Shown piece after piece: positions 314-60,591 of a stretch of DNA of 64,000 bases. A program made the translations under genes and the position numbers. The number at the start of each line of letters is the position of its first letter. The stretch's first letter is position 1. The notes beneath the pieces were generated by a model. That model was given only the letters and a program-made list of their open reading frames with translations. It did no database searches and was not told the DNA's origin. This DNA is from Polytrichum commune (lineage: Eukaryota; Streptophyta; Polytrichopsida; Polytrichales; Polytrichaceae), in the NCBI GenBank assembly GCA_950295325.1, contig OX485804.1, positions 57,960,429-58,024,428 on the forward strand, read 5' to 3'.

Positions 314-1943
314 GCTGCACAAAAATGTGAACATCTCTGTCTCGACCTTCACCACGAGCTGCAATTTCTTGAACTGCTTGTAGCAGAGAATGCACCGCAG
401 CCTGCAACCAGTTCCACAAATTGAGATACAAGGGTTTTTTTTTAATTCAGTCATGTGAAGACATTCCACAAACATGACCACTTTGCTTTAGATTCTCCGG
501 ACTTCAGGAGCACAATTCTTAGGTGCATTGGAAGCACAACACAACAGGGTATTTTCAGATCATACTTCTGTTCAGGTGAGTAATGGAGTATTATTTTCAA
601 ACCTCTTTTCTTCATTTTCCAGGCTAAACGAAACCAATTCTTATCTTGTTCCCCTTCATAATAGTGGTCAAGCGTTCAATGATACAGTTGAACACTTTGG
701 TCATACAATATAATCTGTCTTTCATTGACAAACTTCGGAGATATTACTATTTATAAGAGAGCTCGTCATAAGGAAAGAAACAAGACTACCTTCCCCTCGA
801 GGACTTTCTCAATTATGGATGTGAATCTTACTTGAAGCAACCATTGACACCACCCAACGCATCTCAAATCATAAACTGGCCAAGTGGTTGACTATACCTA
901 TCCCTAGAGAAAACAGATTATGCCAATTTTGCTCCCCCAATGCAGTTGACAATGAAAATGAGGCACACTTTGTGCTGTAGTGTCCCCCTCTACAACTTCA
1001 TTAAAGATAGATTTCTCACCCTATTCAGAATGTAGTTTTAGGCAGTCTCAAGTCTTTATTCCAATCGGCCTATCGCGTTGATGTTAGCCGCTATCTCACA
1101 GAGGCCACTGCACTCCGTTACTCTAGGGAATTAGCCTTTTTTAACACCATCTTGATGTACTTCGGTCCCATAAGCGTTTTGGCTTCCTAGACTTCAATAT
1201 CAATTTCATCTCAATTTATAGGCTCGTTTTGCAGTTCTCAGAAATCGAAGCTCGTAAGTGGTTCAGCTTACGCTCATCTCATCTCATCTCCATGCAATGC
1301 ATATATGTATACTTATGGGTACACTGGCCAATTTTCAATTTGACATTCTTTCCAAGACTAGCAGATTCGCTTGAGAGTAATTGCCTAGTAAGCGAACAGT
1401 TCTCAGAAATTGAGGCTTGTAGGCTCAGCTTAAGGTCATCTCATCTCCATGCAAGGCATACATACTTATGGTACAGTGGCCAATTTTCAATTTTGGCATT
1501 CTATTCAAGACTAGCAAATACATCTGGAAGTAGGTAATTGCCTGGTAAGCGAGCAGCTCTCAGAAATTGAGACGTGTAGGCTCAGCTTATGGTCATTTCA
1601 TCTCCATACGTATAAACTTATGGTACAGTGACCAATTTTCAATTTGACATTCTGTTCAAGACTAGCAAAATTCGTTTGGAGGTAGGTAAATTGCCTGATA
1701 AGCGAGCGTCCTCATCCACGCATTTTTGTCGATACCGAGCCATTTTTGAGCAAACCAAGGGCCGCGCGTGAGCGACTCTTGATCCTCCATGGCGGATTTA
1801 AAGACACTCGCTGCGTCATGCAAAGCTTGCACAAGATTCTTGTTGCCCTGGTTGCCGCCCTGGTTACCACTGGCCAAGGCTTCTTCATCAAAAAATCTGA
1901 CCCGTGCATTGGCACTCCTATCTAGACTGCCATTCAAAGACGC

Positions 1944-13100: not shown

Positions 13101-13106
13101 ACCGGG

Positions 13107-13376
13107 CCACGTCCAGCAGCTAAGCTGAGTTTGTCTAACCCCCAGTCCAGCAGTTGAGCTGAGTTTGTCGAAGCCACGTCCAACAGCTAAGCTAAGTTTG
13201 TCTAACCCCCACTCCAGCAGCTAAGCTGAGTTTGTCGAAGCCACGTCCAGCAGCTAAGCTGAGTTTGTCTGACCCCCGGTCCAGCAGCTAAGCTGAGTTT
13301 GTCGAAGCCACCAGTCCAGCAACTAAGCTGAGTTTGTCGAACCCACGTCCAGCAGCTAAGCTGAGTTTGTCGAAAC
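13107..13376. repeat. Minisatellite, eight units of 32-35 bp with alternating types
   Basis: Each unit carries GTCCAGCAGCTAAGCTGAGT followed by TTGTC. Units 1-6 alternate between a CCACG- lead and a CCCCCAG/CG- lead, giving a higher-order dimer of about 67 bp. Unit 7 (CCACCAG lead) and unit 8 (CCACG lead) break the alternation. Confidence 0.9.
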
Positions 13377-13379
13377 CAC

Positions 13380-19497: not shown

Positions 19498-20533
19498 GGA
19501 GGTTGGTTTCAAGGTGGCTAGCTCATATTGCCACATCGACTCGGCAGTAGAAAGCGGTTTTGGTGTGAAGCCTCGCTAACTAAGCTCCAATGTTAGGTTG
19601 AAACCAAGTGGACTAAAGTAAGGTGAGAAGGGGTTTTCAAGGTGGCTAGCTCAGATTGCCACATCGACTCGGCACTAGAAAGTGACTTTGGTGTGAAATC
19701 TCTCTAACTAAGCTCCAATGTTAGGTTAAAACCAGAGCCCAACATTTTCCTTTCTAATTGCACCCATACCCAAACCATGCCCATCAGCAACGACCTATGC
19801 CCACCCATGCCCACCCATAGCATGACATGTGCGCACCCATGCCCACCCATGCCCACACATAGCATGACATGTGCCCACCCATGCTATTCAAATTGCGCCC
19901 ATGTATTCAAAAATTATGTAATGTGTATTGTGTAATTGTGTAATTGTGTAATTATGCCCCACCCATGCCCGCCCATGCCCGCCCATGCCCGCCCATGCCC
20001 GCCCATGAACAATAATAGCGCAGCCATGCCCACCCATGCCCGCCCATGAACAATAATATTGCACCCATGCCCACCCAAAACCCATGGGCATGGGTATGGA
20101 CGCCCGATGTAGGGCTCTGGTTAAAACCAAGTGAACTAAAGTAAGGTGAGAAGGGGTTTCCAAGTTGGCTAGCTCGGACTGCCACATCGACTCAGCAGTA
20201 GACAACGACTTTGGTGCGAAGCCTCGCTAACTAAGCTCCAATGTTAGGTTAAAACCAAGTGAACTAAAGTAAGGTGAGAAGGGGTTTCTAGGTTGGCTAG
20301 CTCAAATTGCCACATCGACTCAACAATAGACAATGACTTTGGTGTGAAGCCTCGCTAACTAAGCTCCAATGTTAGGTCAAAACCAGGTGAACTAAAATAA
20401 AACGAGAAGGGATTTTGAAGATGGCTAGCTCGGACTGCCACATCGACTCGCCAACAGAAAGCGATTTTGGTGCGAAACCTCACAAACTAGGCTCCAATGT
20501 TAGGTCAAAACCGGGTGGACTAAAGTCATGTGA
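19498..20533. repeat. Five tandem units of about 129 bp, interrupted by a transposon
   Basis: The units start near 19498, 19628, 20149, 20278 and 20406. Each contains GGCTAGCTC, TGCCACATCGACTC, CTAAGCTCCAATGTTAGGT and AACTAAAGTAAGGTGAGAAG-type blocks. The second unit is split by the 385-bp element at 19734-20118. Confidence 0.9.
19734..20118. mobile_element. Mutator-like non-autonomous element, copy B (10-bp TSD)
   Basis: The ends AGAGCCCAACATT and GATGTAGGGCTCT match copy A. It is flanked by an exact 10-bp direct repeat GGTTAAAACC (19724-19733, 20119-20128). The interior is dominated by CCCATGCCCACCCATGCCC-like minisatellite. Neighbouring 129-bp units contain the unfilled site TTAGGTTAAAACCAAGTG, which confirms the exact insertion point. 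Confidence 0.9.
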
Positions 20534-20539
20534 GAAGGG

Positions 20540-21150
20540 GGCATAAGTATGATGACATAGGTGACCCCCCCCCCCCCCCGGTGACTTGTTTCCAAGGGCC
20601 CCTTTGGGCCCGGGCCTGTAGGAAGGAGACCACGATTTGGTAGTCAGGCAGGCAGGCCCCCTTTTTGAAGCAATCAACTAACATATTCGATGACACACAA
20701 AACGCAAATGATCCAAAGGTGACACGACCCACGTGGCATGATCCGTGTAGCATGAGCTCCGGTTGGGGCCGATTGTAATGATGCACTTTTGGGAAGGCGA
20801 AAGTTTAAAAGCCCAAAAGCGGAAATGAACAAAATAAAGGTGCGTTTTACATTTCGCGTCTCGGTCCAAGGGACTTGGGGGTCCAACGCACCCCTTGCAT
20901 AAAGGGACCTTCACATTTGCGACGCAAAGATCATCTCCGAGCTTGAGGTTTGGTTTCCCAACTTGGGTGGAGTGTTTTCTTTTGAGTTCGGATCGATCGA
21001 CGAGATTTGGAGGGGCAAGTGTTGTTGCGTGAGCACCATACCATTCTCTCGTACTTTGGACTTGGATGCTAGTTAGTGTAAATGTCTTGGGTCTAAAATA
21101 TATGTAAGATTGTTTGATTTTGAAGTTTATTTTGGTCTCGGACTTTAATG
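20540..21150. repeat. GC-rich dispersed repeat, second copy
   Basis: A C homopolymer at about 20566-20579, a GGGCCCGGGCC patch and a tail collinear with 3690-3900 (GGTTTCCCAACTTGG, TTTTCTTTTGAGTT, TTTGGTCTCGGACTTTAATG). Confidence 0.5.
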
Positions 21151-51572: not shown

Positions 51573-51956
51573 GGGTACAAATGAGTGGAATTGAGAGCTC
51601 AAAATGTAATCTAATCTCCTCTCCTCACACAGGCCCCGTGGTGAGATTTGGACCGAAAGAGACAAACACGCCAAGTGGATGAGAAGAGATGGATGGATGG
51701 ATGGATGGATGAAATGTCCGGCGACCACTTCTCGCTCCCCTTTTATAACGCTCTTGCGAGCGCTTGGGCGTCTCCGGAGCGAGTGTGTCCGAAGGAAGCC
51801 CGGTGGGAGGGAGCAGAGCAAAAACAGAGTTAAGGGATCTCACATAAGATTTGAGTCGCGGGGGAGGGAGGGCGTCGTTTTGACGGATTGATTGATCAAT
51901 CGAGAAGAAAGTACCTCCATCTGCGAATTAGTTAGTGCTTCTCGAGCGAGCGCGCG
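51573..51956 (+). promoter_or_regulatory. Presumed promoter and 5' leader of the dehydrogenase gene
   Basis: It contains a GATG/GATGGATG tetranucleotide run (about 51690-51712) and becomes GC-rich towards the ATG. The leader is GCGAGCGCGCG immediately before the start. No TATA box assigned. Confidence 0.3.
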
Positions 51957-54357
51957 ATGCTGCAGGGCAGGCGCTCCATCTGCCGCGCGCTCCTTCGCAG
52001 GGGCGTCGACTGGAGCCGCAGCTATGGCGCGGCTGCGGCCGGTGGAGGTGTAGGAACCGACGATCCCGTGCACACGCCCTCCAGCGTACCGCAGCACTTC
52101 GGCCCGGGGAAGCTGGTTGGCAAAACCGCTCTTATCACAGGCAAGTCGAGTCAAGTGCACCCCTTCTATGTCGTCTGTGAAGCTCTGTGTCGTCCGCCCT
52201 GTCCTGCCCATCCTGTGTGAATTTGGAGCCCATATTGGCACGAGGCTCCGAACCGTGAAGGTTTTTGTTGCATTGCGCCTTGGTGTGCATGGTACATTCT
52301 TCTCTTTCAGCCCCTTCCGAGTGTGCTAGTTGGAAAGAGAGGGCTTGATTCAAAGGCAAGTCGGGTCAAGTAATCCCCCTCTATATCCTCTGTGAAGCTC
52401 TGTGTCATCCGCCCTGTCCTGCCGCTCCTGTGTTAATTTGAGCCCAATTGGCACGAAGCTCCGAACCGTTAAGGTTTTTGTTGCACTGAGACTAGGTGTG
52501 CTAAGTACATTCGTCTCCTTTTGCCCCTTCCGAGTGTGCTAGTTGGAAAGACGGCTCTTATCACAAGACAAGTCGAGCCAAGTCATCCCCCTCTAAATTG
52601 TCTCCGAAGCTCTGTGTTATCCTCGCTGTCCTGCTGCTCCTGAGTGAAATTGGAGCCGGGAATTGGCACAGGCTAGGAACTGTTAAGGTTTTTGTTGCAT
52701 TGACACTAGGTGTGCATAGCACAGTCTTCTCTTTTGGCCCCTTCCGAGTGTGCTGGTTGACAAGACAGCTCTTATCACAGGCAAGTCAAGTCAAGTTATC
52801 CCCCTCTATGTTGTCTGTGAAGTTGTATGGCATCCGCCCTGTCCTGCCGCTCCTGTGTGAATTTGGAGCCGAATTGGCACGAGGCTTGGAATCATTAAGG
52901 TTTTTGTTGCATTGAGACTAGGTGTGCATAGTACATTCTTTTCTTTTTGCCCTTTTTGAGTGCGGTTGAGAGCTGAAGCATTTATTGAAGCTTGGCTGGA
53001 TACAGGAGCCGGCAGCGGGATTGGACGACATGCTGCACTTTTGTTCGCACAGGAGGGCGCTTCCGTAGTCGCTGCGGACCGGAACCTGGCAGCCGCTGCA
53101 CGGACTGTGGACGCAATGCACGAGTTGAATGGACAAGGTGTAGCTGTCGGGGGTGATGTTTCCATTGCCGATGATGTGGCAGCTATGGTGGCCAAGGCGG
53201 AGAAGGTAAAGTGAACAAATTATGTATATATAATCTGCATATTGAGGTGCATACGTACTGTATTCATCTGATCCAGGTTAGTACTCTTGAGTATTCTAAA
53301 GCCTGCATTAGATAGACCCAAAGGCACGAACATTAGACTGAAATGATTAATGAACAAATTAACAAGGCCGTCGCCCGTTTTGTCGACTAGATAACTTTGC
53401 AATATGCGTTCACCCCAAGGTTCTGAAAGCCTAGCCTAAGAGATGGTTAGAGTTCGTTCCAGTTCGACAACAATGCGACCAACAGTTCAAGAGTAATGGT
53501 GACCATACGAAGGGTTCTGCAAACGAGGAACAGTGTTTCTGTTGGTTCATAATTGGCCATGTATGCAAATTTTGCACTTGATGTATGTGCAACAGAGCAA
53601 CAGTTTTGACACTTGGTGAACACACATTGACGGCCATTAATGTCAAGCTCTCTGCAGGTGTTTGGTGGACTGCACATTGTGTTCAACAACGCTGGTATCA
53701 TGGATTCCGGAGATGATAACGTTATCAACACACCTGACGATGTGATTGACCGCACTTTAGCCATAAATGTCAAGGGAGTAATCTATGGATGCAGGTAACT
53801 GGATTATTTCCCTTTGCTACTTACCACGAGTCACTAAGAATTCAGATATCCCTTCATTGTGGAGGGGCTAGCTGTGATCCTTGGTTGGTTGGTGTACACT
53901 TCTTTCCGGAATCAACCTCTTATTTACATCTATATTTTTTTACTGATGTTTCAGGTATGGCATTCCTGCAATTATAAGATCAGGTGGTGGTTCCGTGATC
54001 AACACAGCCTCATTTGTGGCGTTCCTTGGGGCAGCTACCCCCCAGATTGCATACACGGCAAGCAAAGGAGCTGTTCTGGCTCTCACAAGAGAACTAGCAG
54101 TCATCCATGCGAGGGAGGGAGTTCGAGTCAATTCTCTATGCCCAGGCCCACTAAGGACCGAGCTTCTTATGAAGTTTTTAGACACTGAAGAGAAAAAACA
54201 GAGGCGTCTTGTTCACATTCCCATGGGACGCTTTGGAGAGGCCGAAGAGATGGCAAAGGCAGCACTCTTCCTTGCATCGCCTGATAGTTCATACATGACT
54301 GGTGCAAGTTTGCTAGTGGACGGTGGAATTACTTCTGCATATGTGACTCCTCAATAA
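51957..54357 (+). CDS. Short-chain dehydrogenase/reductase, probably mitochondrial (4 exons, 307 aa)
   Basis: Exons: 51957-52140, 53006-53205, 53658-53794, 53955-54357; phases close exactly. The classical SDR features are present. The NAD(P)-binding TGAGSGIG (61-68) is split by intron 1. The NNAG motif is at 138-141. The catalytic set is Ser193 and Tyr207-x3-Lys211 (YTASK). PGPLRTELL and a C-terminal LVDGGITSAYVT close the fold. AADRN after the second strand (ADRN, Asp in the cofactor-specifying position) favours NAD(H). The first ~20 residues (MLQGRRSICRALLRRG) are Arg-rich with no acidic residues, which suggests a mitochondrial presequence. Substrate cannot be told. Exon 1 ends ATCACAG|GCAAGT, a GC donor, and intron 1 is a four-unit tandem array that repeats this junction. 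The stop codon lies inside AATAAA (54353-54358), a possible poly(A) signal. Confidence 0.95.
52141..53005 (+). repeat. GC-AG intron 1 made of four ~213-bp tandem repeats that copy the splice junction
   Basis: The unit marker at the donor recurs at 52141 (ACAG|GCAAGTCG), 52356 (AAAG|GCAAGTCG), 52568 (AAGACAAGTCG) and 52781 (ACAG|GCAAGTCA), a period of 212-215 bp. Shared blocks are CCCCCTCTAT, CTGTGAAGCTCTGTGT, GTTTTTGTTGCATTG, GGTGTGCATRGTACA and CCCCTTCCGAGTGTGCT. In the last copy about 29 bp of exon 1 (LVGKTALITG codons) are repeated upstream of the decoy donor as GCTGGTTGACAAGACAGC. The true acceptor is GGATACAG before 53006. Confidence 0.92.
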
Positions 54358-56388
54358 AAGCGGTGAAGAGAAACTGGATCGGACTGAAAACGCACCATCA
54401 AATTTCAGTCACCATCTTGCTGATAATTTTTTTATTTATCATGTAATTGCAGTTGTTCAGACAAAGACCAGATGAGATAAGCACTTTGGCTTGGAAGGCA
54501 CATATCTTCTTCAAGTAGTGGCTGTAAAGCATGTGCAATGAGCATTTCAGCCTTGAGATAGTTGGAAGCAAAGGGCAAGGTTATGTTGGTACCAATGCTT
54601 AGAGGCCAACTAGACAGTCTGTGTCCGTCTGCTCAAGCACCTGCTTGAGCAGAGAAAATGTCTAATTTTAATCGGGATCTGTTCCTGATGTATGAGCAGC
54701 TACTTGCATGCACAAATGTCCAATTCGAAGAAGGATATGTTGGTAGATATGTGGTCAACAGACCTTTCTAGACCACAGGATGAAGTCCATTTCAAATAGA
54801 CATCTCTTCCTAATGTTTGAGGCAAGCTACTTGAATACACAAATGTGAAATTTGAACAAAGATATGTTGCTTGCTGTGTAGGCTACAGCCAAAGGATGCT
54901 GCACTAAAGAGTCAGTGCTTGGGTTGCCAAAGCTCTACTATTCTACTACAAACTTGAACAGAGCCATAAAAAAAAATCACAGAACACAACTACCTAAGCC
55001 TCAAATCCAAAAGCTTGCTATTCTGGTTGACAAAATTGGATGCCTTCCTTTGTATCAAAGTAATTGGGCATCTGGTGTCGGAATGCAACGGTGGTGACAT
55101 TGTGAAGGCATCACAAGGTAAATCTACAACATTGTCCTGACATAAGTCATCATTAATGATTGTTCTATCCAAATATACCAAGAACTCACCTTCTCCTACA
55201 CCAAGTGACGTTTTACATATAACCACCATTCAAATTTTCGAGGCTCCATATTTGAAGGACAAGGAGGGTTAAGGTGTGTTGGTGACAACCACACCCACAA
55301 GTACTCTTGCCCACCTAACATACAAAGTGTAGTTAAGAGTGGTTCCAAATTGCAATGGTTGTACTTTACTTTCTTTGGTTCTATTATGTTTGTAGTTATT
55401 ATGTGGCACCCAGTGCAAACTTCAAGGCCAAAGGATGGGAGAGGACTTGTAGGAGGCAATTACGCTGAGACAAACTTTCCACTAGAATCCACAAATTGTT
55501 TGTCTCCACTCCACGGAGTGCACCAATAGAAGGGACAAAATTGAGGTCAAATCCGCTCTTGAACTACTACACCTTGTGTAAAATAATCATAATTGTGGTT
55601 GAAATTGGGTCCGAACCACAACCGCTCCAGTTGTGTGAGTGGTTGTAGTATGTTTACCATGTGGATGTAGATCAAAGCATATTATGCAAGAAATGGGTCA
55701 AACAACAACTAATCTCTCCTAGACAAAGCTTTTCAGCTGGTTCATGTCCTATCGTAACAAGTCATCCAAGCACCTAGCCTTGGGAATCCTTCCTTCCAAC
55801 AAGAGGATGACAAATGGGTTCCAAGCTTTGAAACCCAATCTCTTACATCCAATCTAGTATGATTCAATGTTCTTTTTCCAGTAGTAATCAACATACATAG
55901 TTAACAAGAGATGGTCATATTTATTATCATCATGGGTGTATGCCTCTTGTCAAGATAGCTGCTACATGAGTAAAGCGCCCTGGCCAGTAAAGATGGATAT
56001 CAACGTGCACTAAGATTTGTATTATCTTACCTCCAATTCAGAAGAGTGCAGCAGAAATGACAAATAGATGAAGGCAAGTACCCCAAATAAGATAAATCAC
56101 TGCAGACATCTCTCTCCTTTGTGAAGTTTATAAGATCAACCTTAGAGCTTCAGCAGGACATCCTGAACTCTATACTGCCTGTGCTCTTTACAAACGTTCA
56201 CACCTCACCATGGAATATATGAGGTGACCAGGCCTTTTAACTTGGAAGAGTCCCCCTATGTGTCAAGTAGCAGCCCTCGCTCCTTGCAGAATATCTTGCA
56301 TTTAGTTCATTCATGGAGCCTCTTATCTACACATTACCTTGCGCAAAAATCAACACCAGGGTGCTATGACAACTGGCATAGTCTTTCC
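54358..56388. other. 3' flank of the dehydrogenase and spacer before the B3 gene
   Basis: It holds a short perfect hairpin (CTGCTCAAGCA, CC, TGCTTGAGCAG at 54629-54652) and a weak tandem duplication of about 120 bp (marker ACACAAATGT...AAGATATGTTG) at about 54645-54875. No gene seen. Confidence 0.4.
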
Positions 56389-59300: not shown

Positions 59301-60591
59301 TCTCTGATGTATCCACTCGGCACACACTGTACACAGAAAGTCCAGATCGATTATTAACTGTTGGAAACTCCTTCACAACTACTCACTCCAATTGCAAAAT
59401 GTTAACCGCTCAATGTGAACAACATCACCACAGAACCACTCTTTCGGAAATCGGAGCTATTGCCTCGGTGTGTGGAGTTTTGACATATGAAACCCCAATT
59501 CTTTGACTGCTCCAGACTTCATTAATCCCAAAGTGTCACAGTGCAGACAACAATTGAAGAGATATCGGAAGAGTGATGTCCGAAAAGAATGCCCGACTAT
59601 AGTGGAAATCTGACAGAGTGTACAGACGGAGAAGTATTAACCACGTCAGGTTTCTACAGGTGTGGATAAATCACCACAGAACGACTCTGTCGGAAAACGG
59701 AGCCTATTGCCTCGGTGTGTGGAGATTAACATATTGAACCCCAATTCTTAGACTGCTGCAGACTTCATTGACCCCAAAGTGTCACAGTGCAAACAACAAT
59801 TGAAGAGATATCGGAAGAATGATGTCCGAGAACAATGTCTAATTGAAGTGGAGAGCTGACAGAGTGGACACGTGGAGAAGTACTAACCACGTAAGGGTTT
59901 CTACAGCGTGTGGAAAAATCACCAAAGCAGAACCACTCTTTCGAGAAACGGAGCCTATAGCCAGGGTGTGTGGAGATTAGCATATTGAACCTCAATTTTG
60001 GACAGCTCCAGACTCAATGAATCCCAAAGTGTCACAGTGGAAACCACAATTGCAGAGATACCGGAAGCATGATGTCCGAGAACAATGTCGAATTGAAGTG
60101 AAGAGCAGCACACAGAGTGGGCAAAGGGGGAGAATTACTAACCAGGTAAGGGTTTCTATAGGTCTGGACTGACTGTACACAAAAGTCCAGATAAATCACC
60201 ACAACAACCATTCCTTCGGAGAACGGAGCCTATTGCCTGGGTGTGTGGAGTTTCAACATATATTGAGACCCCAATTCTTGGACTGCTCCAGGCTGAATTA
60301 ATCCCAAAGTATTACAGTGCAGACAGCGTATTATTGAAGAGATATCGTCGGAAGAATGATGTCCACGAGCAATGTCCAACTGAAGTGGAGACCAGCACAC
60401 AGAGTAGGCACAGAGAGAGTAGTACTAACCAGGTAAGGGTTTCTACAGCTGTGGACTGCGCTGTCGGAGAGAGTTTTGTAGAAGCGGGGCACCACGACAG
60501 GCTTTCTCCCTTTCCCGTGCGCACTCTGACAAGTATGAGTGCACACTCGACACGCCCTGTATTCGTCGGTCTCCTCGTCATTGCTCCCCAT
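56389..60591 (-). CDS. B3-domain DNA-binding protein with two B3 domains (5 exons, 808 aa)
   Basis: Exons: 60591-60457, 59326-58850, 58715-58511, 58364-57715, 57348-56389; every phase closes. B3 domain 1 spans about residues 31-125: VVVPRFYKTLSDSA in exon 1, then VPSGYIRDHIGKDVKKDFVL, EWVVSFNRCGLYGGWKSF and ERGDHLMAG in exon 2. B3 domain 2 spans about 458-565: NPSAVVAMRISFV, then FPKVTRSLELED, PGWKDFVDSHALEVDDVCVM and RVRVHVFRAH. Between them is a Pro- and Glu-rich linker with KRKK-type basic clusters and a CANCGLP motif. A long Lys-rich region follows domain 2. The last ~65 residues (NVVRLLDRRKGLNGVVFLVE) form a small beta-like module, vaguely chromo-like. The N-terminus has CRVCTHTC, a possible metal site. 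REM-type B3 proteins are nuclear DNA binders; targets cannot be told. Intron 1 is a tandem array. Confidence 0.9.
59327..60456 (-). repeat. Intron 1 of the B3 gene, made of four ~250-280-bp tandem repeats
   Basis: The marker CCCAAAGTGTCACAGTG (last copy CCCAAAGTATTACAGTG) recurs at about 59527, 59773, 60023 and 60303. The marker CGGAGC(C)TATTGCC recurs at about 59451, 59699, 59949 and 60225. Minus-strand GTAGAAACCCTTACC follows the exon 1 boundary and recurs at unit boundaries. TGTGTACAG, the true acceptor before 59326, has a copy at about 60171-60179 placed directly before a GTCCAG copy of the donor side. Confidence 0.88.

Follow-up and report, generated by a model that had tools for sequence, protein, structure and literature searches.

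The 64-kb window, by which we mean the whole stretch of DNA analysed here (positions 57960429-58024428 of its contig), contains on its forward strand a gene (51957-54357) whose four exons, joined by way of the junction 52140/53006, give a 307-aa short-chain dehydrogenase (SDR) frame (Table 1). The encoded protein matches the Pfam family adh_short_C2 (E 1.5e-61) and aligns to the solved structure 4wec (E 5e-66) with no gap across the junction of intron 1, where the glycine motif is divided between exon 1 (ITG) and exon 2 (AGSGIG); the motif is likewise ungapped against 4dqx. Judged from its sequence, intron 1 has the features of a GC-AG intron, running from CAG/GCAAGT to ATACAG/GAG (slashes mark splice junctions) and restoring a conserved protein when removed, and GC-AG is the best reading of this first intron. 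Among the best candidates listed for other SDR places in the genome, a homologous intron is present in none of 10: eight give near-complete matches to the query within a single open frame, at 32-38% identity, and two match partly, at 42-44% identity.

Table 1. Coordinates of the genes, repeat units and candidate exons discussed in the text (window positions).
Feature	Position	Strand	Remarks
Third array, unnamed gene, intron 1694-402	1231-1714	-	three copies of exon end and donor; the first is the real one, apparent GC donor TATCAG/GCAATT
SDR exon 1	51957-52140	+	ends ACAG/GC, phase 1 (KLVGKTALIT/G); homology across junction
SDR intron 1	52141-53005	+	best read as GC-AG; 865 bp, 49.6% GC
SDR unit 1	52112-52326	+	exon end, real donor and 5' part of intron; TRF, register, alignment
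Candidate 45-nt pseudo-exon	52311-52355	+	acceptor-like TTCTCTTTCAG ends at 52310, decoy donor at 52355; TGA would enter frame
SDR unit 2	52327-52538	+	donor copy AAG/GCAAGT at 52355; register, alignment
SDR unit 3	52539-52751	+	donor copy broken, CAA/GACAAG at 52566/52567; reads LVGKTALIT
SDR unit 4	52752-52964	+	exact 9-base donor copy at 52780; reads LVDKTALIT
SDR single-copy 3' tail	52965-53005	+	about 41 bp; sole acceptor of gene model (ATACAG/GAG); border to unit 4 approximate
SDR exon 2	53006-53205	+	joined frame
SDR exon 3	53658-53794	+	joined frame
SDR exon 4, up to stop codon	53955-54357	+	joined frame
B3-domain gene array, intron after exon 1 (60591-60430)	59414-60456	-	four copies of exon end and donor; the first is the real CTG/GTTAGT
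Candidate 30-nt in-frame micro-exon in B3 array	60143-60172	-	near-copy of real acceptor, exon-end copy, donor copy

A tandem array in the first intron

Tandem Repeats Finder (TRF) reports at the SDR locus a repeat at 52112-52952 with a period of 213, 3.9 copies, 82% matches and a score of 1117, and by test the array is a tandem repeat, with head-to-tail copies above chance. In an ungapped register the starts of successive units lie 215, 212 and 213 bp apart, and the units are 79-84% identical in pairwise comparison over 208-214 columns. Each unit spans from about -29 (exon) to about +184 (intron) relative to the donor. The initial annotation, which had described four units of about 213 bp filling the dehydrogenase intron, was therefore right on this point, and also in its observation that the last unit copies some 29 bases of the exon end (26 of 29 nt match at 52780, and none of 1000 dinucleotide shuffles does as well) together with a donor identical to the real one, both being CAG/GCAAGT. 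Its further statement that two other copies keep or nearly keep the donor holds for the copy at 52355 and fails for that at 52566/52567, which has neither GC nor GT; position 52567, which it had listed among the decoy donors, is unusable as one.

Several simpler origins can be set aside. It is extremely improbable that the gene model is wrong, with exon 1 ending at a GT elsewhere, or that the array is an assembly artefact, given that the GC-AG junction produces the ungapped glycine motif against both structures and that the units differ at 16-21% of sites, which is too much divergence for a collapsed or inflated assembly repeat. An intronic cluster of small RNAs (snoRNA) was rejected, as a cmscan search of 51700-55500 gave no Rfam match within 52112-53005 at E values up to 5. 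Gain of an intron by duplication of an AGGT-type segment was also rejected, since the best intronic match to the start of exon 2 is not significant (219 of 1000 shuffles are as good); the duplicated junction is that of an already existing intron. Pairs of CAGGCAAGT separated by 180-210 bases had no match in the genome, but the SDR locus itself falls outside this pattern, which makes the result uninformative.

Arrays in two other genes of the window

Arrays that include an exon end and its donor are not confined to the SDR gene, as two more genes in the window carry them. The window holds two B3-domain matches, which mark it as plant DNA, since B3 factors are plant proteins. In the B3-domain gene that carries an array, the intron after exon 1 is 1103 bp long, and the exon-end copy alone is matched by none of 1000 shuffles. 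The first unit of this array also holds the real acceptor (ATCTGGACTTTTGTGTACAG versus TCTGGACTTTCTGTGTACAG), followed by a 30-nt copy of the exon end and then the donor CTG/GTTAGT. Inclusion of the candidate micro-exon would keep the frame and add SVQTYRNPYL directly before CVPSGY; either form matches the B3 domain (25.1 and 24.3 bits), both scores being below the curated cut-off of 30.1 with part of the domain as the query. The third gene has no Pfam match, and its apparent GC donor is deduced from the joined frame. Its exon end alone is matched as well by 19 of 1000 shuffles, and by none of 1000 when 15 nt of intron are added. By eye, the remainder of intron 1694-402 seems to include other repeat-like sequence.

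In a DNA search of the 408-Mb genome (seven contigs make up 406 Mb), with very common words skipped, the SDR, B3 and third arrays were each found in one place, and on this basis, which falls short of proving absence, a dispersed repeat or transposon of the introner-like kind was rejected for all three.

Donor copies and possible regulation

Across the nine codons LVGKTALIT, exon 1 and the third SDR copy differ by four silent third-base changes only; the fourth copy differs from exon 1 by one amino-acid change (G to D) and two silent changes, and the second is scrambled and contains a stop. From these differences exon 1 looks like the copy that is used and under protein constraint. The decoy donors had initially been described as lying in the coding frame, which is true in the weak sense that the third and fourth copies can still be read as exon-end peptides (Table 1), and is not true of the frame coming from exon 1. 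The intact copies at 52355 and 52780 lie 215 and 640 nt past 52140, neither distance being divisible by 3, the distance to the broken third copy is 426 or 427 nt depending on the counting point, and read-through from exon 1 meets a stop at 52218, inside unit 1. In the frames of the exon copies themselves, 2, 31 and 20 open codons precede 52355, 52566 and 52780, respectively, and none of these open stretches holds an ATG, so that being in frame would matter only for a transcript or exon starting inside the intron.

Pairing energies with U1, a crude guide here, are -7.4 for both 52140 and 52780, -5.9 for 52355 and -2.0 for the third copy, the best of the set being a GT site at 52364 (-8.7). Since 52780 equals the real donor in pairing energy, site strength alone cannot make 52140 win, and since the nine bases are identical the choice must rest on something besides the site. 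Of the 8 donor copies in the three arrays of the window, 7 retain the dinucleotide, where the rate of dimer retention within the units predicts about 5.6, so there is no clear indication of selection for or against donor copies.

Competition between donors in the SDR intron, as raised in the initial annotation, would be conceivable. That the array serves to regulate splicing, either through donor copies competing with 52140 or through a poison pseudo-exon (52310/52355) that lowers mRNA by way of decay, we regard as quite unlikely. The equivalence of 52780 and 52140 in donor bases and pairing energy would suit such a role, as would the TTCTCTTTCAG that stands 45 nt before the decoy donor 52355 in unit 1 and in no other SDR unit, inclusion of the segment adding a TGA. 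Against it, the donor copies decay at an approximately neutral rate, with the third lacking its GC, and conservation singles out no element, as the longest stretch of invariant positions, at 15 bases, is not significant (permutation P 0.085). The same lack of significance tells against the idea that the repeats enhance transcription or expression from within the intron and are maintained because unit number matters, an idea that we consider very unlikely even though the array lies in a first intron near the start codon and the unit core AAGGTTTTTGTTGCA is identical in the four SDR copies; in addition, a kinesin gene (L042, below) carries the same kind of array in an internal intron.

Arrays in long introns of six gene families

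For a wider view, exons of kinesins, AMP-binding enzymes, SNF2 proteins, glucan synthases, Cpn60 and ABC transporters were mapped (best candidates only), and 79 long-intron stretches totalling 110 kb were taken from these six Pfam families; they were picked by eye, in most cases because successive exon matches lay far apart, and are not a random sample of introns. Clear arrays, with units of at least 60 bp, occur in 8 of the 79. Two have the donor in the unit. In the kinesin L042 the exon end alone (8 nt) is not significant (222 of 1000 shuffles), with 15 nt of intron it is matched by none of 1000, and the donor dinucleotide is kept in one of two copies; the AMP-binding L045 is a weaker case (2 of 1000 shuffles). 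One array, in the ABC transporter L085 (77-707), has a unit carrying the acceptor and about 14 nt (16 by hand) of the next exon (0 of 1000 shuffles), and both of its decoy acceptors are dead, AG having changed to AA in copy 1 and being deleted in copy 2. The other five (L048, L075, L082, L090 and L097) include neither donor nor acceptor.

Together with the three arrays of the window this makes 11 clear arrays, with the donor in the unit in 5, the acceptor in 2 (L085, and B3, whose first unit has both) and neither in 5. The dead acceptors of L085, set beside donor copies that mostly keep their dinucleotide, would fit a view in which additional acceptors do harm and additional donors do none; this is a lead only, as the intact acceptor copy in the B3 array runs counter to it. 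Arrays with a period of at least 90 are present in 3 of 15 random pieces of 10 kb. Dropped before these counts were L071 (a dispersed ACCCATGCCC-type repeat), L092 (a 53-bp pair 528 bp apart), L026 and L053 (30-bp units) and L059 (a 21-bp pair). Two further cases are borderline: L066, a 29-bp pair 70 bp apart that starts at the donor (8 of 1000 shuffles; its acceptor is approximate), and L044, an interior 28-bp pair 94 bp apart. The 11-array and 13-array counts leave both out and take both in, respectively, and the 12-array count includes L066 and omits L044.

Placement of arrays relative to splice sites

All three genic arrays of the window include the donor, which looked systematic, but the family sample and a geometric null removed the signal. 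This null places a unit of the observed length uniformly over the inferred ancestral intron and predicts 3.45 arrays that cross the donor; 5 of 11 are observed to do so (P 0.23). The corresponding P values are 0.34 without the seed array (SDR), 0.75 for the eight arrays of the family sample, 0.095 for 12 arrays and 0.12 for 13 with both borderline cases. Donor inclusion thus occurs at about the geometric rate and needs no special pull towards the donor; many units must cross an edge because a unit often approaches the ancestral intron in length. A seeming excess of GC donors was likewise dropped: 2 of 12 compares with 1.49% in plants, as given in a survey of non-canonical splice sites (PMC7072748), at P 0.013, but at 0.15 without the SDR seed.

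The exon part that is copied is short. It measures 8-33 nt in all six clear junction-crossing arrays, which has a post hoc P of about 0.0007 under uniform placement, with family exon borders, unit lengths, copy numbers and exon parts in these placement counts hand-read or rounded. Local alignment gives shorter exon parts, namely 13 versus 19 for the third gene, 29 versus 33 for B3 (where the query was cut at 30) and 14 versus 16 for L085. Exon parts of at most 33 nt suggest that array placement may be not wholly random. They would also be expected from a mutational hot spot, in which DNA breaks preferentially where exon meets intron (for example through a link to transcription) and arrays start just inside the exon. 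We think this unlikely, as the pattern comes from few cases with hand-entered exon parts, the P value becomes 0.0037 without the SDR seed and 0.084 when the family sample is taken by itself, and the same outcome would follow if longer exon copies were selected against.

Probable growth of the SDR intron

Neutral growth by tandem duplication across the exon-intron junction, with the extra copies silent, is the probable history of SDR intron 1. Growth of this kind had been raised in the initial annotation, and the extent of the unit (-29 to +184) and the recurrence of arrays in other introns support it well. The ancestral intron would have been about 225 bp long (three units, 640 bp, being subtracted), and its donor would already have been GC. 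A segment of about 213 bp, bounded by one break in the exon some 29 nt short of its end and another some 40 bp upstream of the acceptor, would have been duplicated in tandem, and with it the exon end, the donor and most of the intron, after which further unequal exchange would have led to four units that then diverged by drift. Microhomology may have been the trigger, as GCTGGTTG in the exon end forms a short match with the GCGGTTG that closes the last unit. We infer this order of events, and we suppose that the extra exon ends would be silent inside the intron, the duplications being tolerated because the first donor still adjoins the exon and the sole acceptor stays single. The SDR array is old, mostly ordinary in mechanism and one of several such arrays in the genome.

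A more far-reaching proposal is that junction-crossing duplication is a recurrent route of intron lengthening in this plant, one that stores exon ends (of at most about 33 nt) and sometimes gives rise to whole new micro-exons, for which the 30-nt B3 cassette is the best candidate, and that the SDR donor copies and the segment 52311-52355 tune expression; taken as a whole, we find this unlikely.

Comparison with known cases

The nearest literature includes a review of intron origins (PMC3488318). According to a review of intron gain (PMC3443670), intragenic tandem duplication can supply extra splice-site sequences, as in the SDR array, but in that mechanism duplication of an exonic AGGT segment creates a new intron, whereas in SDR an existing intron was lengthened and none was gained. 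The potato RdRp gene (PMC4974935) offers a plant tandem duplication crossing an exon-intron boundary, as in SDR; it differs in that the boundary is 3' (intron 1/exon 2) and a new intron was made, while in SDR the boundary is 5' and the copies lie within the old intron. The nearer parallel to that case is L085, whose unit runs across the acceptor and some 14 nt into the following exon. Novel intron positions in Drosophila (PMC2891723) similarly involve regional tandem duplication including a splice site, but, unlike in SDR, coding sequence was duplicated and one copy intronised.

A search of the open literature, mainly outside subscription journals, gave no report of intron growth through arrays in which the 5' splice site is part of the unit. 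Human introns have reportedly been linked to tandem arrays by Zhuo et al. in 2007, to go by the title.

Pre-mRNAs of the SDR type present several near-identical donors before one acceptor, with strength approximately constant and position varying, and so allow the choice that plants make between equal 5' splice sites to be tested directly. The arrays also show a simple route for the lengthening of introns and for the possible birth of micro-exons, and the copies may have retained an earlier state of the exon end at its silent sites.

Further repeats

Other repeats were noted in passing. At 20119-20540 of the window a 128-bp tandem array adjoins ACCCATGCCC-type repeats at 19760-20080 (the latter seen by eye), and L071 near 520-630 resembles the window stretch 19760-20540, possibly as a dispersed element. 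Window positions 13106-13379 hold an array of 33/67-bp units with 90% matches at period 67, the unit corresponding to about 11 codons. Very recent tandem duplication is seen in L020 (6687-7036), where two 174-bp copies show 100% matches. An 83-bp tandem duplication in an ABC-transporter intron (L097, 361-527) is also recent, at 97.6% identity, and suits a study of fresh breakpoints.
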